Positions 8,714 to 46,969 of a stretch of 64,000 nucleotides of DNA are shown here, in pieces (the stretch's first letter is position 1; every line of letters begins with the position of its first letter). The notes beneath the pieces are model-generated. The model saw only the letters and a list, made by a program, of their open reading frames with translations. It had not been told where the DNA came from and did not search any database. The translations under genes and the position numbers were made by a program. The stretch spans positions 174,001-238,000 of the forward strand of contig JAPJBO010000186.1 in NCBI GenBank assembly GCA_030068145.1, written 5' to 3'. The stretch comes from Diplonema papillatum (Eukaryota > Euglenozoa > Diplonemea > Diplonemida > Diplonemidae).

Positions 8714-9682
8714 TCAGCTTCCTGACAGAGGCCCTGCTAAGACGGCGTCAATTTGCTTGACAGCTTTCAGACACGACTTTTGCGTATCCGAGGCGAGAGT
8801 GTACGTGAGCAGGTCGGAGTCCGGCCGTTCGCCGGGGAGGAGAGACGCGAGGGATTCGGCGATGTGCGACAGCGCCGCCGTGACGGAGTAGGCCGTGGGC
8901 GGCGCCACGAACCGCGACATCGTCGGAAACGACGTCGAAGTCGACATGCCGGACGCGGAGAAGACCGGCGACAGCGGCGCGCCCCTCGACGGGTCCAGCG
9001 GCGAAGACGGCAGCCGCGACATCTGCGGCGAAACCGACGCTCGGGCAGCGGTGCCGTAGTGTATGACGGCTTCCGGGTACGGGGAGGAAGAAGCCCGCCT
9101 CGGTTGGAAAACCGCGTCCAGCCGGCTCCGCGGCTTCTGCGGCGACAAATCGGGATGGCGGGCACCGGGGGGGCGAATGGCGAGGCTCTGCAGCTCGTCG
9201 ATGAGGAGCTGGTGGTCCTGCAAGTACCCGTCGGGTATCGTTTTGAGGACCGATCCGACGTAAGAAAACGGCTTCCGCCCGGGGGGCGCGGCGGCGTGGC
9301 TGTGGGGGGTGGGCGGTCCCCTCGAGTTGCGGCGGCGGTCGGGCGTCTGGTTGCGGCTGCGGGAGCCGTCGACGCTCGCGCTGTGGCTGCGCTTCCCCCA
9401 GAATCCCACCGAGCCGACGGACCCCGACCGCGATCGCCGGCCGCCGTCGTCGCTGGCGCCGCTGGTAGACTGCCGGCTTCTCTCCCTCCCCGGCGTCTTC
9501 CCTTCGAACAGCCGCTGCTGCCGCAGCTCGGATTGAGTCGGGTTTCCGTTCATGTACCGGGCCCCGGTCCGCTCCTTCGTCGGCGGCTTGTACACCGGCC
9601 TCTTCTTCGCGGGCGCCGGCGTCGGTGTGTACACCACCCACGTCTCGTTTCCGTTCAGCTCATTGTGCGACAGCCTTCGCAT
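8714..9682 (-). CDS. Basic Ser/Arg/Pro-rich protein, unknown function
   Basis: This is an ATG-started frame of 322 residues with G/C-rich third positions. The N-terminus (NGNETWVVYTPTPAPAKKRP) is followed by a basic Ser/Arg-rich segment with SR-type dipeptides (about 70-125). The only folded-looking part is around 140-175 (GSVLKTIPDGYLQDHQLLID). The C-terminal third is Ser/Pro-rich and ends SDLLTYTLASDTQKS. There is no known domain, signal peptide or membrane span. The basic low-complexity character would suit a nucleic-acid or cytoskeleton binder, but that is a guess. Truncated copies of its own 3' end lie downstream and of its 5' end lie upstream. The frame with plus-strand 334 codons over the same DNA is a shadow. 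Confidence 0.7.
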   Translation of the reverse strand: MRRLSHNELNGNETWVVYTPTPAPAKKRPVYKPPTKERTGARYMNGNPTQSELRQQRLFEGKTPGRERSRQSTSGASDDGGRRSRSGSVGSVGFWGKRSHSASVDGSRSRNQTPDRRRNSRGPPTPHSHAAAPPGRKPFSYVGSVLKTIPDGYLQDHQLLIDELQSLAIRPPGARHPDLSPQKPRSRLDAVFQPRRASSSPYPEAVIHYGTAARASVSPQMSRLPSSPLDPSRGAPLSPVFSASGMSTSTSFPTMSRFVAPPTAYSVTAALSHIAESLASLLPGERPDSDLLTYTLASDTQKSCLKAVKQIDAVLAGPLSGS

Positions 9683-11446: not shown

Positions 11447-11805
11447 CACTGGATTTGCGGGTGTACCCACACCGACATTTTCACCGCACAGTTAACTCCC
11501 CCAACCCGGTGCTGGAGTACATCGCGTTGGTATAAAGCCAAGTGGTGCGAGGATTCATTACTTGCCTTTCTCAAGTACTTGTGTGCGGCTGTTCCATTCG
11601 GAGCACTACACCTAAACACTGCACATGGTAGTACCTGCACCCATGCCACGTACGTAGACATGTCCCCTGGTAACATACGACGGGAGTACCAACGCCACAC
11701 AGCGTCAGTATGAGGGTGGTGAAACACCTTTCGAAAATCAGAAAACACCTCCGAATTTGTCAGAACGACGGAAACAGACAACAGCCGGGCTGTAGGTCTA
11801 GCGGG

Positions 11806-11960
11806 GTCTTTCTAGCGTTATTTGTGGATCAGAACGTCGGTATTTTAAAGTCTTCGGTTGATCGTAGAGGCTTGGGTAAGGAAGGGGTTGAGAGGGTTGA
11901 GAAGAGTGGAGGGTGCTGCTCGTTTCGGGTGATGTGTCACTCCGTTGCGAAACCTTGTGT
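11806..11960 (+). repeat. Dispersed repeat R1, copy 1
   Basis: About 150 bp, starting TAGCGTTATTTGTGGAT and containing GTCGGTATTTTAAAGTCT and GTAGAGGCTTGGGTA, recur in the same orientation at about 49945-50095 with few differences. It has no coding capacity and no clear ends. Here it lies just upstream of the 34-bp minisatellite; the other copy lies just upstream of the type I membrane protein gene. Confidence 0.65.
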
Positions 11961-12089
11961 GTGCCCTAACCCGTTTAAGGGGTGTTTGGGATTGGGTAGG
12001 GTGTGGTCGTTCTGCTACGGCGTGAAAAGCCAGGAAGTTTCGACGCTAATCTTCGACTCTTGGTTATGTTCATCGGGTAGCGTGCTCGT

Positions 12090-13757
12090 CAGGAAGATCC
12101 CGGTGCCTGGCTTTCCTTCGTTCTTCGGCCGTCCCGGTGCCTGGCTTTCCTTCATTCTTCGGCCGTCCCGGTGCCTGGCTTTCTTCATACTTCGGCCGTC
12201 CCGGTGCCTGGCTTCCTTCATTCTTCGGCCGTCCCGGTGCCTGGCTTTCCTTCATTCTTCGGCCGTCCCGGTGCCTGGCTTTCCTTCATTCTTCGGCCGT
12301 CCCGGTGCCTGGCTTCCTTCATTCTTCGGCCGTCCCGGTGCCTGGCTTTCCTTCATTCTTCGGCCGTCCCGGTGCCTGGCTTTCCTTCATTCTTCGGCCG
12401 TCCCGGTGCCTGGCTTTCCTTCATTCTTCGGCCGTCCCGGTGCCTGGCTTTCCTTCATACTTCCGCCGTCCCGGTGCCTGGCTTTCCTTCATTCTTCGGC
12501 CGTCCCGGTGCCTGGCTTTCCTTCATTCTTCGGCCGTCCCGGTGCCTGGCTTCCTTCATTCTTCGGCCGTCCCGGTGCCTGGCTTCCTTCATTCTTCGGC
12601 CGTCCCGGTGCCTGGCTTTCCTTCATTCTTCGGCCGTCCCGGTGCCTGGCTTTCCTTCATTCTTCGGCCGTCCCGGTGCCTGGCTTCCTTCATTCTTCGG
12701 CCGTCCCGGTGCCTGGCTTTCCTTCATTCTTCGGCCGTCCCGGTGCCTGGCTTTCCTTCATTCTTCGGCCGTCCCGGTGCCTGGCTTTCCTTCATACTTC
12801 GGCCGTCCCGGTGCCTGGCTTCCTTCATTCTTCGGCCGTCCCGGTGCCTGGCTTTCCTTCATTCTTCGGCCGTCCCGGTGCCTGGCTTTCCTTCATTCTT
12901 CGGCCGTCCCGGTGCCTGGCTTTCCTTCATTCTTCGGCCGTCCCGGTGCCTGGCTTCCTTCATTCTTCGGCCGTCCCGGTGCCTGGCTTCCTTCATTCTT
13001 CGGCCGTCCCGGTGCCTGGCTTTCCTTCATTCTTCGGCCGTCCCGGTGCCTGGCTTTCCTTCATTCTTCGGCCGTCCCGGTGCCTGGCTTTCCTTCATTC
13101 TTCGGCCGTCCCGGTGCCTGGCTTCCTTCATTCTTCGGCCGTCCCGGTGCCTGGCTTCCTTCATTCTTCGGCCGTCCCGGTGCCTGGCTTTCCTTCATTC
13201 TTCGGCCGTCCCGGTGCCTGGCTTTCCTTCATTCTTCGGCCGTCCCGGTGCCTGGCTTCCTTCATTCTTCGGCCGTCCCGGTGCCTGGCTTTCCTTCATT
13301 CTTCGGCCGTCCCGGTGCCTGGCTTTCCTTCATACTTCGGCCGTCCCGGTGCCTGGCTTCCTTCATTCTTCGGCCGTCCCGGTGCCTGGCTTTCCTTCAT
13401 TCTTCGGCCGTCCCGGTGCCTGGCTTTCCTTCATTCTTCGGCCGTCCCGGTGCCTGGCTTTCCTTCATTCTTCGGCCGTCCCGGTGCCTGGCTTTCCTTC
13501 ATTCTTCGGCCGTCCCGGTGCCTGGCTTTCCTTCATTCTTCGGCCGTCCCGGTGCCTGGCTTTCCTTCATTCTTCGGCCGTCCCGGTGCCTGGCTTCCTT
13601 CATTCTTCGGCCGTCCCGGTGCCTGGCTTTCCTTCATTCTTCGGCCGTCCCGGTGCCTGGCTTCCTTCATTATTCGGCCGTCCCGGTGCCTGGCTTTCCT
13701 TCATTCTTCGGCCGTCCCGGTGCCTGGCTTTCCTTCATTCTTCGGCCGTCCCGGTGT
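12090..13757 (+). repeat. 34-bp minisatellite, about 49 units
   Basis: Tandem units start CCGGTGCCTGGCTTTCCTTC and end ATTCTTCGGCCGTC. Units are 34 bp, or 33 bp when one T of the TTT is missing. Rare variants carry ATACTT or ATTATT in place of ATTCTT, or CCGCC for CGGCC. No plus-strand frame contains a stop within the unit, so all three frames stay open for 540-700 codons. Alternating 33- and 34-bp units would shift the frame constantly, so I treat these frames as chance and the array as non-coding. Confidence 0.9.
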
Positions 13758-13914
13758 CAGGATGAGCTGGCAGGTTCCTTACCTGCTCTGCGGTGGAAAA
13801 CTTGCTGCAGCAACATGAAGGGATATACGGTGCAAAAGAATACGACGGGCAAAAAGAGGAGAACATGGCTGTGCTCGGGAGGTAGTATGTAAATGGGCGG
13901 CAGGAGTGAGGGTA

Positions 13915-19710: not shown

Positions 19711-21522
19711 CTAGCTAGTACATGCCAGCATACCACGCCAGCATACCACGCCAGCATACCTTACGTACAATTTCACGCGTGCGCTTCCTGTTTGACCTGT
19801 ACCAACACGCGCGTATTGATAATGACAAACACGTTGTTGTTGCGTATAAGAAAGTGGTGGGGGGAAAAGGCAAACCTTCTGGTTTCTGCACCGGTGGAAG
19901 AATTCTTCGAGCTCCCGAGGCGAGAACGTGGTCAGCCGCATGAGGATCAGGTAGCTGCGGTCCAAGCTAGTGTCGTTCCACGCGTCTTGCGCGTCGAGCG
20001 TGCTGGTGACCTCCGGCTCCATGACGCCGAGGACCTGCACTTTCCCTCTCCGGCCGAGCTTCGTGTGGCTCGCGACGTAGTCCGACCACTTCTTCACGTC
20101 GAGGATCCCGGCGTGGACCACCTTAACCGCAACCACCGGAGACTGCGGGTCGAACTGCAGGCGGACGATGCACGCGGGCTGGCTGATGGCCCTGATATCG
20201 CGCCAAGACGCGACTTTTTTGCCGTTCACCCGCAGCACCCGGCGGCCCACGAACCTCACCGCCCCGGAGGCGTCGGCGGCGCTTCGGTTGTCGACGCACC
20301 GGACCATCGTTTGGTCCTCCCACATGACGCCGAGGGGCTCTCCGGCTCGCTTGTCGATGAAGACCTCGTGCGGCAGGATCACGTTGCACTCCCGCGAGCC
20401 TTCTTCGCCCTGGTGGACGATGCCCACGACGAGCCAGAACAGGAAGCCGCAGGCCGCGAGGGCCGTGACGGTCACCACGATGGACAGGTTCCACGAGAAC
20501 ATGTCGAACGAACTCCCCGGCCCGCTCTCTCCGCCCGGCGCGGCGGCGGCGTCGTCAGTGGCCAGCGGCTTCCCCGCGCGCGCTGCTGGTTCTGCGCGCG
20601 AGGCCGCGGATCTCGCGGGGGGTTGCTGCTGGGGATGCTGCCTAGCGTTCTGCTGGGGATGTTGCTGTGGATACTGCTGAGTGTTTTGCTGGGGATGCTG
20701 ATGGGCGTTCTGCTGAGGGTACTGTTGTGGATGCTCCTGTGGATACTGCTGAGTGGTTTGCTGGGGATGCTGATGGGCGTTCTGCTGAGGGTACTGTTGT
20801 GGATGCTCCTGTGGATACTGCTGAGTGGTTTGCTGGTGATGCTGATGGGCGTTCTGCTGCGGATGCTGCTGTGAATGCCGAGGGTTCTGCTGGGGATGCT
20901 GAGTGTTCTGCTGAGGGTACTGCTGTGGATACCGCTGGGTCTGCTGGGGATGCTGAGTGATCTGCTGGGGATGCTGCTCCGGGTGCCGGCCATTTGGGTT
21001 GTGTTGGCCCGAACGAGCTTGAGCGGTCTGTGCCTGGACTGACCGCTTTCCTAGAACACCGTTTCGACCCGCTGACCTGGGCCCCTGCCGCCCCGCGCGA
21101 CCCCCCCAGCGATCACCGTCGGACCCTGCCTGCCCCGCGCCGAGATCAGATCCCGACGGCCCCACACGCCCGCGGGCCTGCCATGTGTGATCGCCGTCGG
21201 ACCCTGCCTGCCCCGCATCAGATCCCGACGGCCCCACACGCCCGCGGGCCTCCCGCCATGTGCGATCGCCGGACCCCACCTGGCCGCCGGGCGCTGACGG
21301 CCGCGCGCTGCCACCGGACCCACGCTGCCCGTTGACCGCCGCGGCAGGTGCATCCCGGGATTCCGCCGCCGTAGACCGGCGAGCACTTTCGCTGCCCTTC
21401 CGCGGCCTGCGGCCCCCCGGCGTAGGCTGCCCGCCAGCCTGCCCTCGCAGGGTCCCCAGGGCACCGCCCGCGCCGTGCTCATTCGCGGCTGCGAATGTTG
21501 CCAATAGCAGCACGGCGAGCAT
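19711..21522 (-). CDS. Single-pass membrane protein with Gln/Pro repeats and a PDZ-like domain
   Basis: This ATG-started frame has 603 residues. Residues 1-14 (MLAVLLLATFAAAN) look like a signal peptide. Residues 15-170 are Gly/Arg/Ser-rich with two copies of ARGRVGPSGSD. Residues 180-300 are a Gln/Pro/His repeat built on QHPQQ and QYPQQ. A membrane span follows at about 346-370 (IVVTVTALAACGFLFWLVVG). A PDZ-like domain covers about 380-456 (EPLGVMWEDQTMVRCVD, then GRRVLRVNGKKVASWRDI). If both hydrophobic segments are used, the repeat is lumenal or extracellular and the PDZ domain cytosolic. After residue 549 the composition changes at CAGAAG/GTTTGCC, a possible splice donor at 19875, so the last 54 residues are probably intron read-through. 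Exon-like DNA at about 19500-19640 (DPSGSSDFTDVMRAPEATRT) and the two-exon frame below could then be later exons of the same gene. Confidence 0.7.
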   Translation of the reverse strand: MLAVLLLATFAAANEHGAGGALGTLRGQAGGQPTPGGRRPRKGSESARRSTAAESRDAPAAAVNGQRGSGGSARPSAPGGQVGSGDRTWREARGRVGPSGSDAGQAGSDGDHTWQARGRVGPSGSDLGAGQAGSDGDRWGGRAGRQGPRSAGRNGVLGKRSVQAQTAQARSGQHNPNGRHPEQHPQQITQHPQQTQRYPQQYPQQNTQHPQQNPRHSQQHPQQNAHQHHQQTTQQYPQEHPQQYPQQNAHQHPQQTTQQYPQEHPQQYPQQNAHQHPQQNTQQYPQQHPQQNARQHPQQQPPARSAASRAEPAARAGKPLATDDAAAAPGGESGPGSSFDMFSWNLSIVVTVTALAACGFLFWLVVGIVHQGEEGSRECNVILPHEVFIDKRAGEPLGVMWEDQTMVRCVDNRSAADASGAVRFVGRRVLRVNGKKVASWRDIRAISQPACIVRLQFDPQSPVVAVKVVHAGILDVKKWSDYVASHTKLGRRGKVQVLGVMEPEVTSTLDAQDAWNDTSLDRSYLILMRLTTFSPRELEEFFHRCRNQKVCLFPPPLSYTQQQRVCHYQYARVGTGQTGSARVKLYVRYAGVVCWRGMLACTS

Positions 21523-21599
21523 CGGCGGGTCTGCTGGCCGGCCGTGTCTGCCTCCCTTCCGCCCCCTGCCGTGGAGTGATGTGCGATGGTTTTGAGGGA

Positions 21600-21845
21600 G
21601 AGAGAGAGAGAACGCAAAAATACTCGAGGGACTGCCTTGTGCTCATTTCGAAGGAGGCTAGAGGGGGAGAAAACAATACAATTACAAAGTGGGTCTTTTT
21701 AGTTGAACGCTTACGCCCGCCACTAAACCCAGATTTACCGGCGTTTCGTGTGGGCTACAGCACACTTACCTTCCTTTGATCTATCGCAGCTGACAGTCTC
21801 CTCAAGCGTTTCCTACAAAGCGGGTGCTTATACAAAACAAAAAGA
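21600..21845. repeat. Dispersed repeat R3, copy 1
   Basis: The stretch contains ATACTCGAGGGACTGCCTTG, GAAGGAGGCTAGAGGGGGAG, CGCCCGCCACTAA, GTGTGGGCTACAGC and TCCTCAAGCGTTTCCTACAA. Related copies in the same orientation lie at about 42640-42800 (internally deleted) and 59111-59345, with a diverged piece at 51537-51640. It is not flanked by recognisable terminal repeats. On the minus strand all three good copies contain a short protein-like run (EEAASCK type) bounded by AG and GTA, which may be a duplicated gene fragment. Here it begins next to the upstream end of the PDZ gene. Confidence 0.6.
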
Positions 21846-21986
21846 TTCCGAGTAGGGGCTGGCTCTGAGATTTGCACAGGGGAAGGGGGGGTCGTTGTAG
21901 AATGGTTTTAGCTTGAAGGGTATTGGAAAGGTTGAAAAAGGTTTTGGGGGTCACCGTCGGTTTGTGTTTCTATTTTTTTCTTGTTT

Positions 21987-22196
21987 TTATTTTGGGGTAA
22001 CTATTTTTTCGGGGGTTCGCGTAACCCTTCTTTTCCGGAAGATAACGTTATCTTTTCTTTTCTCTCTGGCGCTCTTTTTCTCTCTATCTCTCTCTTTGGC
22101 TAGCAAAGCGACTATTGCGACCGACACCACGACCACACCCGCAATGAATGTGATCAAGGGCCCCCCACGTTCTACATGTTGAGCAGGGGTTGCCAT
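21987..22196 (-). CDS. Small ORF with one membrane span in the PLE 3' region (copy 1)
   Basis: This ATG-started frame of 69 residues begins MATPAQHVERGGPLITFIAG. A hydrophobic stretch (LITFIAGVVVVSVAIVALLA) is followed by a highly charged, basic tail (KERDREKKSAREKRK). It lies about 350 bp downstream of the USP-ORF stop. The equivalent frame in copy 2 is 82 residues with one change in the hydrophobic segment and a different C-terminal tail. As the copies are young, shared openness is weak evidence for coding. Confidence 0.35.
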   Translation of the reverse strand: MATPAQHVERGGPLITFIAGVVVVSVAIVALLAKERDREKKSAREKRKDNVIFRKRRVTRTPEKIVTPK

Positions 22197-22552
22197 GTAG
22201 CCCGTACCGGTCTAAGCCTTCATTGTAGCTTCCATAAGTACCCCCATTGGGACGGGTCCGACGGTCCGTTAGTCATCAGCGACACCGGGCGGGAAAAAGT
22301 AAATAAAAAGAAAGGGGAAAAATGGGGGTGTGGGTGGATAAGCTCGTGGTAGGTTGTTCGGAAATAAGTACAACCTCAAACTACGCCTAGCACAGGGCCA
22401 GGCGGCATATACGTGCCTTCATCCTCTCATGTTAGTGTGCGTTCACTCGTACAGACACTTCGAGTTTTTCCCGTTAGTCAGGGTAAACGGGTGCGGAGTG
22501 AAACATAGACCAGCCAGCAATCAAGAACCCGATGAGGCTCAAACGACGTGGA

Positions 22553-24000
22553 TCAGAATCTCACACCCGCGAGGTGGCAACGTCTCTCATGCGCGCGGAG
22601 TCCCCTCAGACCTTGGAACCTCTGGCCATCCCTCGTGCACTCGATGGAGCAGTGTTGACATCGCAGCACCGGGGAACCCGTTAACTGCTGTTCAAACAAC
22701 TGACCATGCGGTGTCAGACATTGGGAGTCCGGCAAGGGCGGGCAGGGTGGCGAATTACCAAAGGGGCAGAAGGAGTCAGGTGAGCCTTCCGACTGCCGGC
22801 TCATCAAATTACCGGCTGAACCTGGGGGTGCAGGCAAGTCGGGTAGTCGATCCTGAGTAGGAAGCACCATGGAGGGTGACGGGGCACGGACAGTCATGTC
22901 GTGGGCATTCCGGGGGATCCGGACAAAGGCCGCGAGGTAAACGTCACCCCACGGAATGTCGTCGACGGAGGTGACGTGCAAGTCGTCGAAGAGGATCCAC
23001 CCCGTGTCTTGCGCAACGTACGTGACGTAGTGTCCGCTAGCCGTATCCTCCCCCATGTGCACCACGACGGCTGCGAGGCGTAGCAGATGGTCCGGCGGTC
23101 CGAAGAAGGGGGGCAATTTCACGTCATTCTGGCGCCTGGCACCGTTTCTCGTGTAGATGCCAAACTGCATCAGAACACATTCAGCTGTCAGACGGAGATC
23201 CATACTTTCAACAACCGTACCTACAGCCTTGCAGTCGCATACTCTCTCCGGATTTACAAACCCGTGCACGTGGAGAGAATCTTCCAGCTTCCTTCCGCAA
23301 GGAATTTGCAGACATTGCACTACCTGACTGCTGGCATTACATCGCACTGAGGTGGTCCAGCCGTTCTCCAAGCATGCTACGAAGAGTTGGTAGCCCGGGC
23401 AGGGGGACCCCGTTTCGTCCGGACCCAGCGTCGCACTGGTCGCGCTGAGTATCGCTACCAGAGCTTCGTGCGCATCGTGCTGCCGTGCATCGCAGAAGTT
23501 TGCGAACATGCTCAGGATGGCTTGGACACCCATTCTCCGACAGTCCCGGCTACGTTGGTCACCACTGTCGCGAGAGCTTGACAGCATGGCAAAGTACGCT
23601 AGGAAGTCCCCGAGAAATCCACGGCAGTTGAGGAGGTCCTGCGCAAGGCTCCAGTACATCTCTCTGATCGGCTCCACCCGCATCAGGAGCTGCAGCACCG
23701 CACCAAGAAAGCACGTGTTCCCCAGATTCGGGAGGCCGGTGGGGCCAAACAGCGTCGGATCATGCTTCACGGAAGGCGGGCGTGTACAAACGACTGACCG
23801 GCAGCACGTGGACGGAGGGGCAGCCGTAAGAACCGGTTTGTGGACATTCGAGCGGCGTCGCTTTGAAACCTGTTGTTCGTCCTCTTCAGCCTTTCGCTTG
23901 TGGCCTTTCCGCGTGGACTCACGGGGGGCGGTCGCATCAGTCTGTTGGGTCGGCGCTTCGGTGGACGGTGATCGGGGGGAGCCATCTTCAGCTTCTGGGG
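22553..24000 (-). pseudogene. USP deubiquitinase plus zinc-finger part of truncated PLE copy
   Basis: The frame is open from the truncation point to the stop at 22553. It carries the RKGHKRKAEEDEQ nuclear-localisation-like segment, the USP Cys box (GLPNLGNTCFLGAVLQLL), QHDAHEALVAIL, the His box (SGHYVTYVAQDTGW) and the C-terminal CQHC...HERRCH finger. Compared with copy 2, six residues are missing beside the first CxxC of the USP zinc site. The first in-frame ATG lies after the Cys box, so a whole USP could only be made if an upstream exon or start were supplied. I therefore call it a non-functional remnant that happens to keep an open domain. Confidence 0.75.
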
Positions 24001-24060
24001 AAGGGGGGGGGGGGGTTGCAAGAACGTGCCCGGCATGGGGGGGGGGGGGGGGGGGTGGGG

Positions 24061-24450
24061 CTAATTTATTCCGGGGTGGCTTTTTTTCCGACTTTTTTTC
24101 CGACTTTTTTATTCCGGGAGGTGAAAATTTGTTCCGGGAGGTGAAAATTTGTTCCGGGAAGTGAAAATTTGTTCCGGGGTGGGCTTTTTTTCTGACTAAT
24201 TTGTTCCGGGAACTGAAAATTTGTTCCGGGGTGGGCTTTTTTTCTGACTAATTTGTTCCTGGGTGAGTTTTTTTTCATTTCTGGGCTAAGAATGGCTGAC
24301 ACGATCAGTGAGCATCCCAGAAAAAAAACTCACCCCGGAACAAATTTTCACTTCCCGGAACAAATTTTCGCTTCCCGGAACAAATTTTCAGTTCCGGAAC
24401 AAATTTTCACTTCCCGGAACAAATTTTCAGTTTCGGAACAAATTTCACCT
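24061..24450. repeat. 20-bp minisatellite A in inverted orientation
   Basis: From about 24063 to 24260 the units read TTCCGGGAAGTGAAAATTTG and variants. From about 24331 to 24450 the same unit occurs as its complement (ACAAATTTTCACTTCCCGGA). The two blocks face each other around 24290 with matching T-rich and A-rich spacers, so the region can form a large hairpin. The same unit forms another array at 26055-26345. It abuts the truncated end of PLE copy 1 through two G-runs (24003-24015 and 24037-24055). Confidence 0.8.
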
Positions 24451-25489
24451 AATTTCACGGGACCCGGACCGAACCCAGAACTGGGGAGGACTGGGCTGAC
24501 AACCCAAGGTGGCAACAAACGGAATCTGCACTCCACATTACATCACGCAAGAATGGCTGATTCCTTCCTGAAGTCATCGACTGTCTTTGTGCCCACAGGA
24601 AGCGCGAACTGAACGCAAGGACCTTCCAGATGTGGAACACTGTACGGAGAGAAGACCACGCAACGGAGCAGGCGCCCACAAGTAGTTTCTAACAGGACTA
24701 ATCCCTCACACCGAAGTGATCATGAGTTGCCTTAACGAAACGAACCTTGTGGAGCTGAACTCAGGCTGATAGGTGGGCCTTCTACAACGTTAGCACCGGT
24801 CAGCAAGTAAACGTATCCGACCCCTGGCACAGAAGGCACGCGGTGGCTATCGGTAAACTGCATCGCGCACTCAGACAGACTTAACAGCATGTACGTGGAA
24901 CCCCTTCCCACGGTCAGTAACTTGGACGACAATTACACTGGACGAACGCAGGAAATGACGAATATCCTCGAGGCTGTCGTAAATTCTCTTCTCAAAAAAT
25001 ATCAAAATACATAGGGTCAAAAGGGCACCCCCCCGAAAAAAAAAAAGACTCCAGATACGCAAACTCTTTCGAACGCTGCACACGGGTATCCTTCAAGTGA
25101 CCTCTAACTATCTGTTGCATACGCGTATCCGGATCTGAAAGCCGAAGACTTTGTAACACTTTACCGCAACCGAAGTCGCGAACCGGGTTCGGCTTGCACT
25201 GCAAAAGCAGCATAATTGTGTCTTGCGCCCGAGCGCGGAAATCCGCCACCCGCCATTCGGCTAGAGTGCAAGAACACAATTGCGAAGCGTACTACAAACG
25301 GATAGTGTTACATAGGCGAACGAATCATGCGAGAACCTATGGAGGGGCCCCTCGACAGCTTTCAGAACACGGCATAGTAAGTCAAGAGTCGGATAAGCGA
25401 GTGTGCACATTCTACTCCCGTTTGATCTGCATTTTCCACCTTTCCCCCCTTTCTTTGATCTGCTGTGTGTATTTGAAAAACGTTATCGC
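24451..25489. other. No gene recognised
   Basis: This kilobase holds no convincing frame and no repeat that I can match elsewhere in the window. Short runs of A (25029-25048) and of C are present. The left end continues from the minisatellite without a clear boundary. Confidence 0.3.
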
Positions 25490-25992
25490 ATGCGGGTAAG
25501 CGGGGTTTGCGGGTTAGGGTTTGCGGGGTTTCCGGGTTAGAGTATGCGGGGTTTGCGGGGTTAGGGTACGCGGGGTTGCGGGTTCGGGTATGCGGGTTTG
25601 CGAGGTTAGGGTATGCGGGTTTGCGGGTTAGGGTATGCGGGTTTGGGTATGCGGGTTTGCGGGGTTTGCGGGGTTAGGGTTTGCGGGGTTAGGGTACGCG
25701 GGTTTGCGGGTTCGGGTATGCGGGTTTGCGAGGTTAGGGTATGCGGGTTTGCGAGGTTAGGGTATGCGGGTTTGGGTATGCGGGTTTGCGGGGTTTGCAA
25801 GGTTAGGGTATGCGGGTTTGCGAGGTTAGGGTATGCGGGTTTGCGAGTTAGGGTATGCGGGTTTGGGTATGCGGGTTTGCGGGGTTTGCGGGTTAGGGTT
25901 TGCGGGGTTAGGGTACGCGGGTTCGGGTTTGCGGGTTTGGGTATGCGGGTTTGCGGGTTCGGGTATGCGGGGGGGGTTCGGGTATGCGTACC
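25490..25992 (+). repeat. G-rich minisatellite with TTAGGG-like motifs
   Basis: Irregular tandem units combine GGGTTTGC, GGGTTAGGGTATGC and GGGTTCGGGTATGC. Repeat periods alternate between about 15 and 22 bp, with GGTTAGGGT appearing many times. It resembles degenerate telomere-type DNA but is interrupted by GC-containing spacers. It lies between the two PLE copies. All frames of one strand stay open because the unit lacks stops, so the 138-codon frame here is not a gene. Confidence 0.8.
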
Positions 25993-26054
25993 TTACACAA
26001 AAATTGTAAAAATCACACACAAATGGTGAAAATCTGGAAAATTTGGCAAACCCC

Positions 26055-26345
26055 AAATTTTTAGTTTCCGGAACAAATTTTCACTTCCCGGAATAAATTT
26101 TCACTTCCCGGAACAAATTTTCACTTCCCGGAATAAATTTTCACTTCCCGGAACAAATTTTCACTTCCCGGAATAAATTTTCACTTCCCGGAATAAATTT
26201 TCACTTCCCGGAACAAATTTTCACTTCCCGGAATAAATTTTCACTTCCCGGAATAAATTTTCACTTCCCGGAACAAATTTTCACTTCCCGGAACAAATTT
26301 TCACTTCCCGGAACAAATTAGTCGGAAAAAAAGCCTGAAAAAAAG
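26055..26345 (+). repeat. 20-bp minisatellite A, second array
   Basis: About 14 tandem units of ACAAATTTTCACTTCCCGGA alternate with a variant that has GAATAAATTTT in place of GAACAAATTTT. The array is followed by AAAAGCTCACCCAGGAATAAA, similar to the spacer near 24300, and then by a G-run (26374-26388). The 3' end of PLE copy 2 starts immediately after that run. Confidence 0.85.
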
Positions 26346-26445
26346 CTCACCCAGGAATAAATTAGCTCGACCCGGGGGGGGGGGGGGGCGTTGTATAATG
26401 GTTTAGCTTGAAGGGTGTTGGAAAGGTTGAAAAAGGTTTTGGGGG

Positions 26446-26694
26446 TCACCGTCGGTTTGTGTTTTTATTTTTTTCTGTATATTTTTTTTGGGGGGTAATT
26501 ATTTTTTCGGGGGTTCGCGTAACCCTTCTTTTCCGGAAGATAACGTTATCTTTTCTTTTCTCTCTGGCGCTCTTTTTCTCTCTATCTCTCTCTTTGGCTA
26601 GCAAAGCGACTATTGCGACCGACACCACGACCACACCCGTAATGAATGTGATCAAGGGCCCCCCACGTTCTACATGTTGAGCAGGGGTTGCCAT
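26446..26694 (-). CDS. Small ORF with one membrane span in the PLE 3' region (copy 2)
   Basis: This is the counterpart of the frame at 21987-22196, with the same start (MATPAQHVERGGPLITFI) and the same basic tail. The hydrophobic stretch has Thr where copy 1 has Ala. The C-terminus continues further (EKNKNTNRR). It could be a second element protein, a remnant, or a chance frame within the 3' untranslated region. Its 3' location, after the polymerase ORF, is unusual for a PLE. Confidence 0.35.
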   Translation of the reverse strand: MATPAQHVERGGPLITFITGVVVVSVAIVALLAKERDREKKSAREKRKDNVIFRKRRVTRTPEKIITPQKKYTEKNKNTNRR

Positions 26695-27050
26695 GTAGCC
26701 CGTACCGGTCTAAGCCTTCATTGCAGCTTCCATAAGCACCCCCGTTGGGACGGGTCCGACGGTCCGTTAGTCATCAGCGACATCGGGCGGGAAAAAGTAA
26801 ATAAAAAGAAAGGGGAAAAATGGGGGTGTGGGTGGATAAGCTCGTGGTAGGTTGTTCGGAAATAAGTACAACCTCAAACTACGCCTAGCACAGGGCCAGG
26901 CGGCATATACGTGCCTTCATCCTCTCATGTTAGTGTGCGTTCACTCGTACAGACACTTCGAGTTTTTCCCGTTAGTCAGGGTAAACGGGTGCGGAGTGAA
27001 ATATAGACCAGCCAGCAATCAAGAATCCGATGAGGCTCAAACGACGCGGA

Positions 27051-30000
27051 TCAGAATCTCACACCCGCGAGGTGGCAACGTCTCTCATGCGCGCGGAGTC
27101 CCCTCAGACCTTGGAACGTCTGGCCATCCTTCGTGCATTCGACGGAGCAGTGTTGACATCGCAGCACCGGGGAACCTGTTAACTGCTGTTCAAACAACTG
27201 ACCATGCGGTGTCAGACATTGGGAGTCCGGCAAGGGCGGGCAGGGTGGCGAATTACCAAAGGGGCAGAAGGAGTCAGGTGATCCTTCCGACTGCCGGCTC
27301 ATCAAATTACCGGCTGAACCTGGGGGTGCAGGCAAGTCGGGTAGCCGATCCTGAGTGGGAAGCACCATGGAGGGTGACGGGGCACGGACAGTCATGTCGT
27401 GGGCATTCCGGGGGATCCGGACAAAGGCCGCGAGGTAAACGTCACCCCACGGAATGTCGTCGACAGAGGTGACGTGCAGGTCGTCGAAGAGGATCCACCC
27501 CGTGTCTTGCGCAACGTACGTGACGTAGTGCCCGCTAGCCGTATCCTCCCCCATGTGCACCACGACGGCCGCGAGGCGTAGCAGATGGTCCGGCGGTCCG
27601 AAGAAGGGGGGCAGTTTCACGTCATTCTGGCGCCTGGCACCGTTTCTCGTGTAGATGCCAAACTGCATCAGAACACATTCAGCTGTCAGACGGAGATCCA
27701 TGCTTTCAACCACCGTACCTACAGCCTTGCAGTCGCATACTCTCTCCGGATTCACAAACCCGTGCACGTGGAGAGAGTCTTCCAGCTTCCTTCCGCAAGG
27801 AATTTGCAAACATTGCATTACCTGACTGCTGGAAGAAGTGCGTCCACATGCACTGCATCGTACTGAGCTGGTCCAGCCGTTCTCCAAGCATGTTACGAAG
27901 AGTTGGTAGCCCGGGCAGGGGGTCCCCGTTTCGTCCGGACCCAGCGTCGCACTAGTCGCGCTGAGTATCGCTACCAGAGCTTCGTGCGCATCGTGCTGCC
28001 GTGCATCGCAGAAGTTTGCGAACATGCTCAGGATGGCTTGGACACCCATTCTCCGACAATCCCGGCTACGCTGGTCACCACTGTCGCGAGAGCTTGACAG
28101 CATGGCAAAGTAAGCCAGGAAGTCCCCGAGAAATCCACGGCAGTTGGGGAGGTCCTGCGCAAGGCTCCAGTACATCTCTCTGATCGGCCCAACCCGTAGC
28201 AGGAGCTGCAGCACCGCACCAAAGAAGCACGTGTTCCCCAGATTCGGGAGGCCGGCGGGGCCAAACAGCGTCGGATCATGCCTCACGGAAGGCGGGTGTG
28301 TACAAACGTCTGATCGGTAGCACGTGGATGGAGGGGCAACTGTTAGAACCGGTTTGTGGACATTCGAGCGGCGTCGCTTTGAAGCCCGTTGTTCGTCCTC
28401 TTCAGCCTTTCGCTTGTGGCCTTTCCGCGTGGACTCACGGGGGGCGGTCGTGTCAGCCTGTCGGGTCGGTGCTTCGGTGGGCGGTGATCGGGGGGCGTCA
28501 TCTTCAGCTTCCGGGACAGGTTGGGGGCGGCCATTGTATTTCACGAAGGGTCTTTCAGCCAGAAGGCGCTCGATCGCAAGGTCCATCGCGGCCGGCTCTA
28601 GCAGTGATAGAGTGCGTTCCACCTCGTGAATGAGCCAGAAGAAGTGCCTCCGCACCTTCTCGCAATGCTCGCCAAATTTGGCCTCTGGGTATGTGTCCAG
28701 GAGCCATTTGCGGAATCCACTCTTCAAAACGCTTTTCCGGTAACCACGCCGCATGAGTTTCAAGACCGTGTTGTTCATTTCGGTCTTGAAATCATATATG
28801 TTGTTGGCGATCCTACCGTTGCGAACGAGGGCCCCAATGAGGATGCTCGAACCGAAGTTTGACGGGGCCGTAGACAGGACTGACGTGTACGCGAGGGGGC
28901 GGTACGGGTAGGCTTTCGCCTTGTCCAAGACCGACAGTCGCATGTATCGCCTTCCAGACGCGCCGGAGACCTCATGTCGTATCCGTATGCCAAGGAAAGT
29001 CGCATCCCCTACGCATGCATTCGTCTGCTTGTACCCCATGCTGTAGATGGACTCGGGAGGGGGTTTCGTCCCGAAACAGAGCAGGTCATCTATAAAACGG
29101 CGCGTCATGCTGAGGAGTGTAGCCCGCCGGATGTCCCTTTCAGCCAGGAGTCTCATCATGTACCTCTTCTCCTTTGCGTAGCAGAAGAGATTGGCAATGT
29201 CTGGGGAGGCGTTAGCGCCCATCGGGATGCCCAATATTTGCCGCATGAGGATGCCGTTCACCAGTACGTACGTGTTCGCCAGGCAGAAAGCGAGGAGGGC
29301 CTTGAGGTCGTGTGCAGAATATGCTGCCTGCTGTGAGCTCAGATCCGTCAACAGCATGAACGCAAAACAACGTTTCTTCTTCTGCGGCCCATGTTGGCTC
29401 TTCGGTCGTACTAGGACCAGTTCATCAACCCGAACGCCGAGCCGTTCGGCCTCCGCTGCAAAGGCTTCGTCGATGGTACCAGCGATTTCCTCCAGCAGTT
29501 CCTCGAGTCCCAGCTGGTCGTACATGGTCGTGAAATCCCATGTACCCGCGACCAGGCCCGAGAGCTCGTCAACATGCGTCTTCAGAAAGAAGGCGGTGTC
29601 GTCACTGGACTCCGTGATCCAGAAGAATCTAAACCCGGTCGCGTTGAATCGGTCGTTGTCCTCCCTCCGTAGGATCTCCATGACTGATTTCAACAGACCC
29701 GTTAGATCCAGCTGTGCATCCGTCGTCGATGAAAATGTTGCATCGGGGCGGCGTGTTTCGCGTTCAGGAAAAGTCTCCCCCGGGCCCACAGTGTTTTTGC
29801 GGGAGACCCCGGCGATGTACCGCATGGTTATCACCTCCTTGTGTAGTTTCAAGGTGCCATAAAGGTAGGGGAGGGTGTTCGTGGGGCTCAGCCCTTTTTG
29901 CTCCAGGTACGTCTTGTGATCTGCTACGACTTCTTCCGGTGTCTTCTCGCTCGGGGCGTAGTTCACGCTGTGGTTAACCTTCGTGTACAGATCCTGGTTG

Positions 30001-31550: not shown

Positions 31551-31799
31551 CTTGACCCGTTCCGGTAGGACCTCGCGCGTTTGTGGACCGGGTCGTCGCA
31601 AAACCGGACACGCGGAACAGTCGGGGGGTTTTTTTTGGGGGGACGGTGAGTCGTCGTGGAGGAAGGCCAACGAGTCGGAGGGAAGATCTATGACGTAACG
31701 TAACGTAACGGAAGGGGTGATAGGGAGGGGCGGGCGGATGGGGCGGCTTGTTCGTCTGGACGGTCGGCGGTGCAATACACGGGGGGGTAGGGAATTCAC

Positions 31800-43937: not shown

Positions 43938-44765
43938 TCAGTCCCCTGCCCGATCCGAGGCGTTTACGCTGGCTTGCTGTTCACCTGTTGCATGGCATGT
44001 GTGTAAAGATTCGTGGCGTTCAGTGGGGTTCAGTGGGTAGCTAACCGTATTTGGACCCCTGCTGTGCTATGCACCAGCTGTGTTCACCACACTGCTTGTT
44101 TCACTGAGGTGCGCGTAGGTATTGCGGTACACAAGATGCCAGCGTTGGAGCTCGGTCTTTGAATCGGGTCAGGTACTCCTAACAAGTAGTACCATGGTGT
44201 GAGGACTTGTGTTCGGAATGGCAGAAAGTGACAACTCCGTTTGCAGATTCCCCGAGTCACAGCAGATCTAGGTGCACCGACAGTGGAGACACAACTCTCA
44301 GGAAGGCACCAATTCGGACAGGATTGTTGCCACCGACCCAAAAGTCCAAGCTCGCGAGGCCCGAGATGCGCGAAATTTAGGAAGAGACGCGTGGTTTTGT
44401 TGTGAAAAAAAAAAAGCAATGGTACAGAAACCTTTGAAGGCTTCCCCCTAGTGGGTAGGGTCTTCACCGTACGGCAGTTGCTTGGGGTTTGAAATGATGG
44501 GCAATTTGGATTTACTTTTTTTTTTTTTTTTTTTTGGGGGGGGGGGGGGGGGGGCTGCACGACCCACTTGCTATGAGGTTTCACATGGTATGCAACATGT
44601 GAAACGAGACAACATAATATTTCGAGACTGGAGGCCCTATGAACATGCAATGTGAATAGCCTCTATTCGAGCCAACCCGGCTTTTATGTGTGAAAAAGTG
44701 TATTGTTTATTTGGAAAGCGCTGAGGGCCGGGGGGGTCTCCCCCCCGGGTACTGGCGCCGAACGC
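43938..44765. other. No gene recognised; T/G homopolymer block
   Basis: The region contains a run of about 20 T followed by about 19 G (44516-44554). An A-run lies at 44405-44414. No frame on either strand is convincing. Confidence 0.35.
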
Positions 44766-45175
44766 CACCAGAACCCGAACTTTGCTTCGCCCGAACTTAG
44801 CTTCGCCCGAACTTTGCTTCACCCAGAACTTAGCTTCGCCCGGACTTTGTTTCGCCCGAACTTAGCTTCGCCCGAACTTTGCCTCACCCGAACTTTGCTT
44901 CGCCCGAACTTTGCTTCACCAGAACTTTGCTTCACCCGAACTTAGCTTCGCCCGAACTTTGCTTCGCCCGAACTTAGCTTCACCCGAACTTTGCTTCGCC
45001 CGAACTTTGCTTCACCTTCGCCCGAACTTTGCTTCACCAGAACTTTGCTTCACCCGAACTTTGCTTCGCCCGAACTTTGCTTCGCCCGAACTTTGTTTCG
45101 CCCGAACTTAGCTTCACCAGAACTTTGCTTCACCCGAACTTAGCTTCGCCCGAACTTTGCTGTTTCCCGAACTTT
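44766..45175 (+). repeat. 16-bp minisatellite, about 25 units
   Basis: Units are GCTTCGCCCGAACTTT with frequent variants GCTTCACCCGAACTTT, GCTTCACCAGAACTTT and the ACTTAGCTT type. The array decays at the right with GCTGTTTCCCGAACTTT. Long stop-free frames across it result from the repeat unit. Confidence 0.85.
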
Positions 45176-46969
45176 AACTGCTGCCTCCAGTCTCGCCACG
45201 CGCCGGCCTTAGCCGAGCGCACGTACCATGCACACATGAGAATACATTTAAGAAACATGACATGAACATAATCTGAAAGCACTTGCCATTGCCGTACTTG
45301 TGTCACATGTCATCAACAACATGCGGATCACTGTTTCGAGTTTGACGGATCTTTCCATAACAACTGGGTCGTGTGCCTTTGGAACCGGGGCGGTCGCTAG
45401 CAGCAACGTAGCCGCGGGAAAGGTGTGGAACGAGATTGTGCTTCTTCTTGAGTTGATTCTTTCTTTTCTTTATTTTTACTTTTGGCGTATTTTGCGAGGT
45501 GTTGGGGTGCTTGCTGCGGGGTCGCTAAGCAGGCCGATATTTCGAAACAGCGTCCGTGAGTACGGTGAACTGCAACCCATCCCGTCTGCTGGCAGTCATG
45601 TTGCACCCTTTTTTTTTCGCATGCCATGGCTGACCAGACGCTGACAGGACGTCTGCATCATCCGGGGCCTGTGCTACCTCCTGTACCCGACAATCCCGAA
45701 TAACGCATTTTCTTTCTTCGAGTGAAAGTTCGCTTGAAACTCCGGGTGTTTAGAGTCTCCGGGACGACCTTCGTCAATGTTTTTTAGCGTTTTTAGCGGG
45801 GTTGTGGCACTGTGCGCTGCCTCCGACTCAAGCTTTGCAAGCTGTGGACAAGGACACGATGTCAGGTTTTACGAAAGGTTTATACGCAGCCCTACATAAC
45901 CTGAGACTTGTACCAGGCTGCGTGGGGTGTGTATCGCACCCACCAAGAAGGGAGTTTCTGCTCTTCGTATTGTCTGACGAGAACTGTCTAGAAGAAAGGG
46001 AGAAGTAAGAACACGTCTTTGCAACTGATATCACTAGCGCAAGGGAATGTTAAGTGAAAAACTTGACTTCTTCCTTGAACCAACCACACCCTGAAGGATG
46101 TGTGAAATTCTCTAATAAGATAACCGCGCCGCCGGCGATGCAGAGAATCGCTACAGATTCTTTGCGTTCTAACCCAAAACTCTAATCGACTTTCGTGTTG
46201 CATCAACTCCCTCAGTGAAACTGTGACATGCTTGTAAGACGCAGCGCATACCAGCAGTAGAAGGACTTCTACAAGTTCCTGGGTGAATTGCGCAGAACTG
46301 GAGGAAGTATTGCTTCTTGCGGGTAAAGTGGCTCATGGCGTCTTGGAACGGTTGGAACGGTGGAGTCGATTCGCCAGCACTACACCCCCTCGGTGAATGA
46401 CTGTTCTGCCGTTCTCCCTCCAAACTCCCTACAGACTTTCACATGCAACGGGAGTGGGTGTTTTTCGGTCTTCTCCTTTTTGCAGTGGGAGCATCTTTTC
46501 AATTGGGATCCGACCGTCCTTTCCGAGAAGAAATGCGTAGTTTTGTTTCATTCTTTTACAAATGAAAAAATGAAGTGCCTGGACGGAAGGCCCCAGGCCA
46601 CTTCGAAGATACGGTCTTTCCGGTGGTGAAGAGCAATGTCAGGGAGAAGAGGGGGGCAGCGACTACACAACATCATCTCAGATGCGACGCAGCGATGAAG
46701 CTGATTCGTGGGAAACGTCGAGCGTTCTCAATATTACTTGTGCCAGACCCCCCCTTTCCATTATTCGTTCAGTGTTTTTTGCGTTTCCGACGAACCCGAA
46801 TGGGCGTACCGATTGGTGCGTTTCGACCTTTTTTTTTTTTCCTCCGCGTCCATTCGTTCACACGCAATAACAGCAGCTTTCCGTGTATCTTGAGTCCAAA
46901 AAGACGGTTAGCATTAAACAAGATTTTAGGGGGGTCGAACTCTCCCGAAAGAATGGCCGGTGGTTGACG
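45176..46969. other. Repeat fragments; no gene
   Basis: The fragment 45797-45850 is a piece of retroposon R2 (GGTTGTGGCACTGTGC..CTGCCTCCGACTCAAGC). The fragment 45955-46110 contains R4-type motifs and a unit (TCGTATTGTCTGACGAGAAC) that is found inverted near 50905. The remaining frames (45300-45644, 46360-46629) are not convincing. Confidence 0.35.

Follow-up and report, generated by a model that had tools for sequence, protein, structure and literature searches.

In the 64,000-nucleotide stretch of the Diplonema papillatum genome analyzed here (contig JAPJBO010000186.1, positions 174,001 to 238,000; hereafter the window), a single open frame of 1582 amino acids at 27051..31799 on the minus strand joins a GIY-YIG nuclease, a reverse transcriptase (RT), a complete ubiquitin-specific protease (USP, peptidase C19) and a zinc-finger-like motif. 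The element to which it belongs occurs in many copies in this diplonemid (Euglenozoa), with the USP as a standing part of its one protein. The reading that we favor, with better than even confidence, is that the frame is the sole protein of a multi-copy Penelope-like retrotransposon and that its USP is a predicted active deubiquitinase which likely clears ubiquitin off the RNA-protein complex of the element itself or off chromatin where it inserts.

The frame has zero internal stops. Its first codon is GTG and the first ATG is at residue 84 (window 31550), from which a protein of 1499 amino acids would be made. The database protein P0002 has 1499 residues and is identical to the ATG-started frame, and the deposited D. 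papillatum protein P0019 shows 100% identity with the frame across 250 RT residues. The GIY-YIG domain occupies residues about 161-270 (30990..31319; this and the following domains are on the minus strand). With the whole frame the Pfam GIY-YIG profile (PF01541) scored 22.5 bits, slightly below the cut-off of 22.6, and with the N-terminal piece alone 25.7 bits (E 1.4e-5). The GIY, YIG, R and E positions were aligned in a set of 8 sequences. The RT, at residues about 431-1085 (28545..30509), gave no Pfam RVT_1 match in either whole-frame or piecewise profile searches, and its identity is predicted from sequence motifs and from the modeled fold. The translation contains three stretches that we take to be motif A (DFTTMYDQ at residue 755, window 29514-29537), motif B (GIPMGANAS at 857, 29205-29231) and motif C (FIDDLL at 902, 29079-29096). 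An AlphaFold2 model of the RT had a mean predicted local distance difference test (pLDDT) score of 85.1, and TERT headed both the Foldseek and the VIA rows, so that the predicted fold is closest to telomerase.

A basic stretch in the linker behind the RT (RKGHKRK...SKRRR, residues 1125-1144, 28368..28427) resembles a nuclear localization signal and may act as one. It is followed by the USP domain at residues about 1178-1465 (27405..28268). Pfam UCH (PF00443) matched residues 1183-1448 with an E value of 1.5e-20 and a score of 74.4 bits (cut-off 23.9), taking in profile positions 2-240 of 254. In the frame the Cys box ends at 28227 and the His and Asp boxes lie at 27525-27536 and 27474-27488. 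The USP model had a pLDDT of 83.8 and a predicted template modeling (TM) score of 0.84, and all 50 rows listed by Foldseek were USPs, including USP21 (E 4.7e-19, TM 0.75). By profile, boxes and model the domain is complete and has a predicted USP fold. The C-terminal zinc-finger-like motif (CxxC ... H ... C/H), found by motif scan at residues 1548-1576 (27072..27158), is common to several relatives. The initial annotation of this DNA, made from the letters alone, had described one uninterrupted frame with an N-terminal GIY-YIG nuclease, an RT with the Asp residues of motifs A and C, a USP with Cys, His and Asp boxes and a zinc finger. Each of these parts was found in place. The profile search that it had proposed gave a clear match for C19 (UCH), a match for GIY-YIG on the N-terminal piece only, and none for RVT_1.

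The genome assembly (271 Mb, 2910 contigs) was searched for copies with USP-containing protein queries, of which the best-scoring candidates were examined: 30 of 1351 for the window frame, 31 of 1258 for protein P0004 and 58 of 1019 for protein P0015. With the window frame as query, at least 14 of the 32 rows span residues 1-1582 without a stop and at a printed identity of 100%, the window copy included, and at least five rows represent a subfamily of 84% identity that spans residues 8-1581. Thirty rows extend to residue 1581 or 1582; the other two (residues 1-938 on C23 and 30-643 on C890) are N-terminal parts whose remainder is in the neighboring row. P0004 represents a family at 67% identity, and at least 14 of its 31 rows are intact and span residues 1-1485 at a printed 100%. 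All 31 rows extend to residue 1480 or 1485 of 1485, beyond the USP, and four belong to the 84% subfamily. A third group was found with P0015, comprising at least 58 rows at 51-54% identity, 57 of them stop-free; the USP is covered in 55 rows and three end within its last part.

Full-length copies lacking the USP, which the initial annotation had named as evidence against its proposal, were not seen among these best-scoring candidates, where rare ones could have been missed because scoring was limited to the best candidates and each query includes the USP. Four deposited gene models in which the USP is largely or wholly missing (P0003, P0006, P0010 and P0014) were considered as USP-less copies and rejected since the matching DNA copies carry a complete USP: over residues 1-1130 P0003 agrees at 99.8% with loci L023, L024 and L025, L032 is the match of P0014, and both P0006 and P0010 correspond to L029 and its family. 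Concerning a splice or assembly junction between RT and USP, the frame was found open and near-identical on many contigs at the level of genomic sequence. A host gene lying beside the RT was likewise rejected because the fusion recurs on many contigs, in agreement with the earlier claim that the USP is part of the element and not of a neighboring host gene.

Conservation was followed in the frames of 26 of 32 fetched loci, drawn from the best-scoring ones, and of the window; of the other six, L001 is identical with the window copy and L004-L008 coincide in place with L009-L013. All 27 frames have the Cys, His and Asp boxes. In the divergent RT-linked USPs (P0001, P0004, P0008, P0009, P0015 and P0017) the oxyanion Asn, the Cys, the His and the Asp/Asn, residues to which we presume the usual oxyanion and catalytic roles, are kept in six of six. 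An aromatic residue follows the catalytic His in five of them and Leu in P0008. Loss of the catalytic residues among copies, the third observation that would have counted against the initial proposal, was thus not encountered in these sets.

Ratios of non-synonymous to synonymous change (dN/dS) were calculated pairwise by the Nei-Gojobori method with Jukes-Cantor correction. Against L023, a copy of the 84% subfamily (L025 gave the same), dN/dS was 0.06 for the RT, 0.14 for the finger, 0.17 for GIY-YIG and 0.21 for the USP, with 0.35 for the linker and 0.59 for the part that follows the USP. A comparison with L028, a 95% copy with a broken frame that differs by few changes, gave 0.12 (RT), 0.26 (USP), 0.44 (linker), 0.11 (after USP) and 0.48 (finger); its partial frame of 1108 amino acids gave no N-terminal value. 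In the third group the USP had a dN/dS of 0.094-0.114 and the RT of 0.063-0.079, at a dS above 1. Between the two copies in the window (see below) dN/dS was 0.15 for the USP and 0.59 for the linker. The USP of this pair differs by 10 amino acid changes against a simulated mean of 21 in the absence of selection, and 0 of 2000 simulations were as low as 10, whereas the linker has 11 changes with 11 expected and the C-terminal part 3 with 5.4 expected (150 of 2000 simulations as low). The low dN/dS and the deficit of changes relative to simulation show that the USP is constrained. The comparison of synonymous and non-synonymous change suggested by the initial annotation hence gives purifying selection on the USP, weaker than on the RT and slightly weaker than on the nuclease.

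The ends of the copies were compared at loci L009-L028 and in the window. Nineteen of the 20 loci share the 3' end of both window copies; L026 was left out since its match ends before the 3' end. All 21 readable 3' ends consist of TACAACG followed by at most one base and then five or more consecutive C. The 5' start points are many and the 3' end is single, as after 5'-truncated reverse transcription. Target-site duplications were examined in 17 copies (15 of the loci L009-L028 and both window copies; L015, L016, L019, L025 and L026 were left out, and L029-L032 are outside the set). Duplications with letters besides C were found in four: 71 bp in L013, 15 bp in L012, 14 bp in L027 and 13 bp in the truncated window copy. 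Six copies share only or nearly only a C-run at their ends, and seven have no convincing duplication. L010 and L020 have the same flanks on both sides, and L014 and L027 share only 15 nt of 3' flank. Flank joins were examined for L010 and L012. When the two flanks of L010 were joined, 40 of 42 rows matched across the C-run, many of them with 99-100% identity over a length of 134 bases; these rows are paralogous repeat copies at different loci, which implies that for this repeat the C tract exists without the insertion. The L012 flanks gave one paralogous place, at 79%, that spans the join.

Upstream of L015, L016 and L019 lie 460-1119 bp of the 3' end of another copy, at 99.8-99.9% identity, indicating head-to-tail copies with segments like pseudo-long terminal repeats (pseudo-LTRs). 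L025, of the 84% subfamily, is preceded by 295 bp from the 3' end of another copy, at 87% identity. Among third-group copies, three were observed in tandem on C510:79898-93626 with a spacing of exactly 5726 bp. At L018 (9096-9364), 269 nt that match the window copy at its 5' end occur inverted behind the 3' end of the L018 copy, as after twin priming or inversion. Hammerhead ribozymes are frequent, though not universal, in the pseudo-LTRs of Penelope-like elements. With an E limit of 1, an Rfam search of window 20000-37000 and of L013, L015, L019 and L025 gave no hammerhead match, though a divergent ribozyme could escape it.

The traits of Penelope-like elements found here are a telomerase-related RT (by predicted fold), a GIY-YIG domain in the RT frame, partial-tandem copies, and 5' truncation together with target-site duplication. 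By these sequence traits the element can be classed as a Penelope-like retrotransposon with an order of the Chlamys/Naiad type, GIY-YIG at residues 169-212 lying ahead of the RT at 431-1085. An N-terminal GIY-YIG domain marks the Chlamys and Naiad groups, and such elements were reportedly described by Craig et al. in 2021. The likeness, which is one of domain order, extends to the single frame and the telomerase-related RT; unlike those groups, the Diplonema element has a USP between the RT and the C-terminal finger. Canonical Penelope/Poseidon elements also encode GIY-YIG and a telomerase-like RT in one open reading frame and form tandem copies that give pseudo-LTRs, but they have a C-terminal GIY-YIG domain and a hammerhead ribozyme (PMC11167929), whereas the Diplonema element has its GIY-YIG at the N-terminus, carries a USP and gave no ribozyme match.

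Two copies of the element are present in the window. The longer one, which carries the complete frame, lies at 26389..33912 on the minus strand with its 3' end (TACAACG) at 26389. It breaks off on its 5' side at 33912/33913. Other copies run 228-369 bp farther 5', with L015, L016 and L019 reaching the full 369 bp, so that the longer window copy is itself 5'-truncated though its frame is whole. On the plus strand a run of 15 G (26374..26388; poly-C in the sense of the element) abuts its 3' end and a run of 19 G (33913..33931) its 5' end. A pseudo-LTR on this copy was considered and rejected since one match of 14 nt was all that was found. The second copy, at about 21892..23996 on the minus strand, is 5'-truncated and begins in the linker ahead of the USP; the two are 95.5-95.7% identical in nucleotide sequence. 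It retains its own open USP frame of 405 amino acids (22553..23770, minus strand; UCH E 1.2e-21), so the truncated copy with a USP segment that had been reported earlier is real. In the alignment its zinc ribbon is 6 codons short, as may occur in a dead copy. The 13-mer GGGGAAGGGGGGG flanks this copy as a target-site duplication, with the left copy at 21879..21891 and the right copy at 23997..24009, and these are its only two occurrences in the window.

Several repeats lie near the two copies. A near-perfect palindrome of about 2.6 kb, rich in ACTAGT, extends over window 33933-36576 and begins 2 nt past the poly-G at the 5' end of the element. Between the two copies is a 2.3 kb unit (24056-26373) with inverted ends CTAATTTATTCC ... 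GGAATAAATTAG, 20-bp tandem repeats and G-run flanks. The tandem-repeat unit beside the poly-C of the window copy also occurs directly behind the L011 copy (near 8914-9202), after the C-run. Farther away, window 11710-13818 holds a 702-amino-acid frame made up mostly of a tandem repeat of 33/34 bp in 44 registers, 44755-45225 is a 16-bp tandem array, and 52935-55271 on the minus strand is a 778-amino-acid frame that, close to the C-terminus, gave weak RING/IBR-like matches, none of which reached the Pfam cut-off.

A related RT is joined to a USP in four further proteins, P0008, P0009, P0015 and P0017, with UCH E values of 3.4e-15, 7.2e-7, 3.6e-15 and 1.6e-9, respectively. Their RTs are 33-44% identical to the window RT. 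P0015 is at most 54% identical to any scored match in the D. papillatum genome, and so comes from another genome. At least one of the four thus places the RT-USP fusion in a second genome. P0018 has GIY-YIG and RT, and P0012 has RT and finger, both with no recognized USP. P0029 is a 569-residue record with a USP and an unassigned N-terminal part. In a small RT tree built only from sequences found here, the USP-bearing rows and P0012 group together with P0018 as outgroup. Scanning viral contigs with the RT-USP alignment gave 86 pattern matches, among which there were no relatives.

The origin of the USP can be read in two ways, as a single capture followed by fast change or as repeated capture of USP domains by the retroelement clade, and both may be compatible with the present sequences. 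To repeated capture we assign a probability that falls somewhat short of one half. Across lineages the element USPs are about 20% identical in the longer alignments while the RTs are 29-44% identical, several element USPs score higher in BLAST against host USPs than against one another, and the position of the USP ahead of or behind the fingers varies by lineage. However, the USP follows the RT directly, with only a linker between, in five of the six divergent RT-linked USPs. Faster change alone could also erase the signal of a single capture, since P0001 and P0004 disagree at 41% of USP positions compared with 24% of RT positions. Trees of the USPs have long branches and are for the most part unresolved; a single clade of all element USPs was not rejected by approximately unbiased (AU) tests, which gave p-AU values of 0.49 for 6 rows, 0.33 for 10 rows and 0.21 for a 7-row subset, but this does not in itself establish the clade.

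Transposon-borne deubiquitinases are of a known kind. Helitrons carry VTD or OTU deubiquitinases with mostly conserved catalytic residues, for which protection of transposition proteins has been proposed (PMC9741609); in contrast to the Diplonema retroelement with its USP, these are rolling-circle DNA transposons with deubiquitinases of other classes. Ginger1 and Mutator transposons carry OTU or Ulp1 domains, and for the Ginger elements action on DNA repair or chromatin was suggested in general terms (PMC2836005). They resemble the present element in having a cysteine protease of the ubiquitin/SUMO pathway and differ in being DNA transposons with OTU/Ulp1 rather than USP. The OTU and ULP-type proteases of other transposons to which the initial annotation pointed are in print, and to them can be added Trichomonas vaginalis XP_001314237.1, which combines transposase_11 with peptidase C19. 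This protein shares the deubiquitinase family but is a DNA-transposase protein, mentioned in the available part of that source in one sentence without analysis of family, copies or selection (PMC2836005). Burro elements, giant Gypsy-like LTR retrotransposons of planarians, have added domains linked to ubiquitination, namely MATH_TRAF_C and a RING-type finger, and to apoptosis; they are likewise retrotransposons with domains linked to ubiquitination, but are LTR elements for which no USP is named in the available part of the source (PMC6431247). The host enzymes USP36, USP12/46 and USP21 share boxes and fold with the element USP, but are 16-23% identical to it in the listed fold alignments and have no fusion to RT or nuclease. 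A USP on a Penelope-like element is without precedent found in the open-license literature, where none was found on other retroelements either, so an earlier mention elsewhere is possible. Penelope-like elements were unmentioned in the diplonemid and Euglenozoa literature among the matches listed, and the main text of PMC10161547 has no occurrence of Penelope or ubiquitin.

In the mechanism that we propose, the GIY-YIG nuclease would nick poly-C/poly-G tracts and the RT would copy the element RNA from the nick by target-primed reverse transcription. The USP, being fused in cis, would travel with the complex, enter the nucleus and act there. It would thereby likely let the element fend off ubiquitin tagging by the host during insertion. 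Sparing of the element's own complex from proteasomal turnover is our first choice, given the fusion of the USP in cis and the proposal of this role for Helitron deubiquitinases (PMC9741609). Alternatively, the USP may edit ubiquitin on histones or repair factors such that the insertion intermediate is completed. A version of this in which it targets, in place of the element's own complex, nuclear ubiquitin signaling where the insertion occurs (histones, clamp or cross-link repair factors) and steers repair toward completed insertion seems to us unlikely, though not remote: a deubiquitinase fused to nuclease and RT would reach the nick, the linker is basic, and the Foldseek rows include, among many others, the nuclear deubiquitinases USP1, Ubp8 of SAGA and USP21, but fold rank among USPs is uninformative on substrate and the search, confined to fold, found no substrate-specific feature. 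We regard it as quite improbable that the USP is a pseudo-enzyme retained for tethering to ubiquitin instead of cleavage. The shortened zinc ribbon of the truncated copy and the Leu of P0008 would fit such a role, yet a domain that only binds need not retain the catalytic residues and boxes that are kept in all six divergent USPs and all 27 frames. Chance neighborhood, host gene fusion or assembly error, which the annotation of P0004 as a host hydrolase and the omission of the USP from several gene models might suggest, can practically be dismissed given open RT-USP frames on many contigs with different flanks and related fusions in other records.

Returning to the cis-acting deubiquitinase, we give roughly even weight to a wider picture in which the elements form a distinct clade of Penelope-like elements, occurring in at least two genomes and abundant in D. 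papillatum, with the fused deubiquitinase as a standing part of transposition. Their complex would insert in poly-C and disarm ubiquitin control at the nick, and 5'-truncated copies would seed free-standing USP frames. For the annotation of D. papillatum, the deposited 'putative ubiquitin carboxyl-terminal hydrolase 16' (P0004) is a retroelement protein, and the gene models P0005, P0010 and P0011, named RRP12, Mg/proton exchanger and kinesin-like, include retroelement pieces; those in P0011 are from two different element groups. The near-identical intact copies, the recurrent poly-C target and the separable USP make the role of the catalytic Cys in retrotransposition directly addressable. That DNA transposons carry deubiquitinases suggests that transposition is held in check by ubiquitin control. 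If the proposed role is true, retrotransposons would contend with their host directly over its ubiquitin system.

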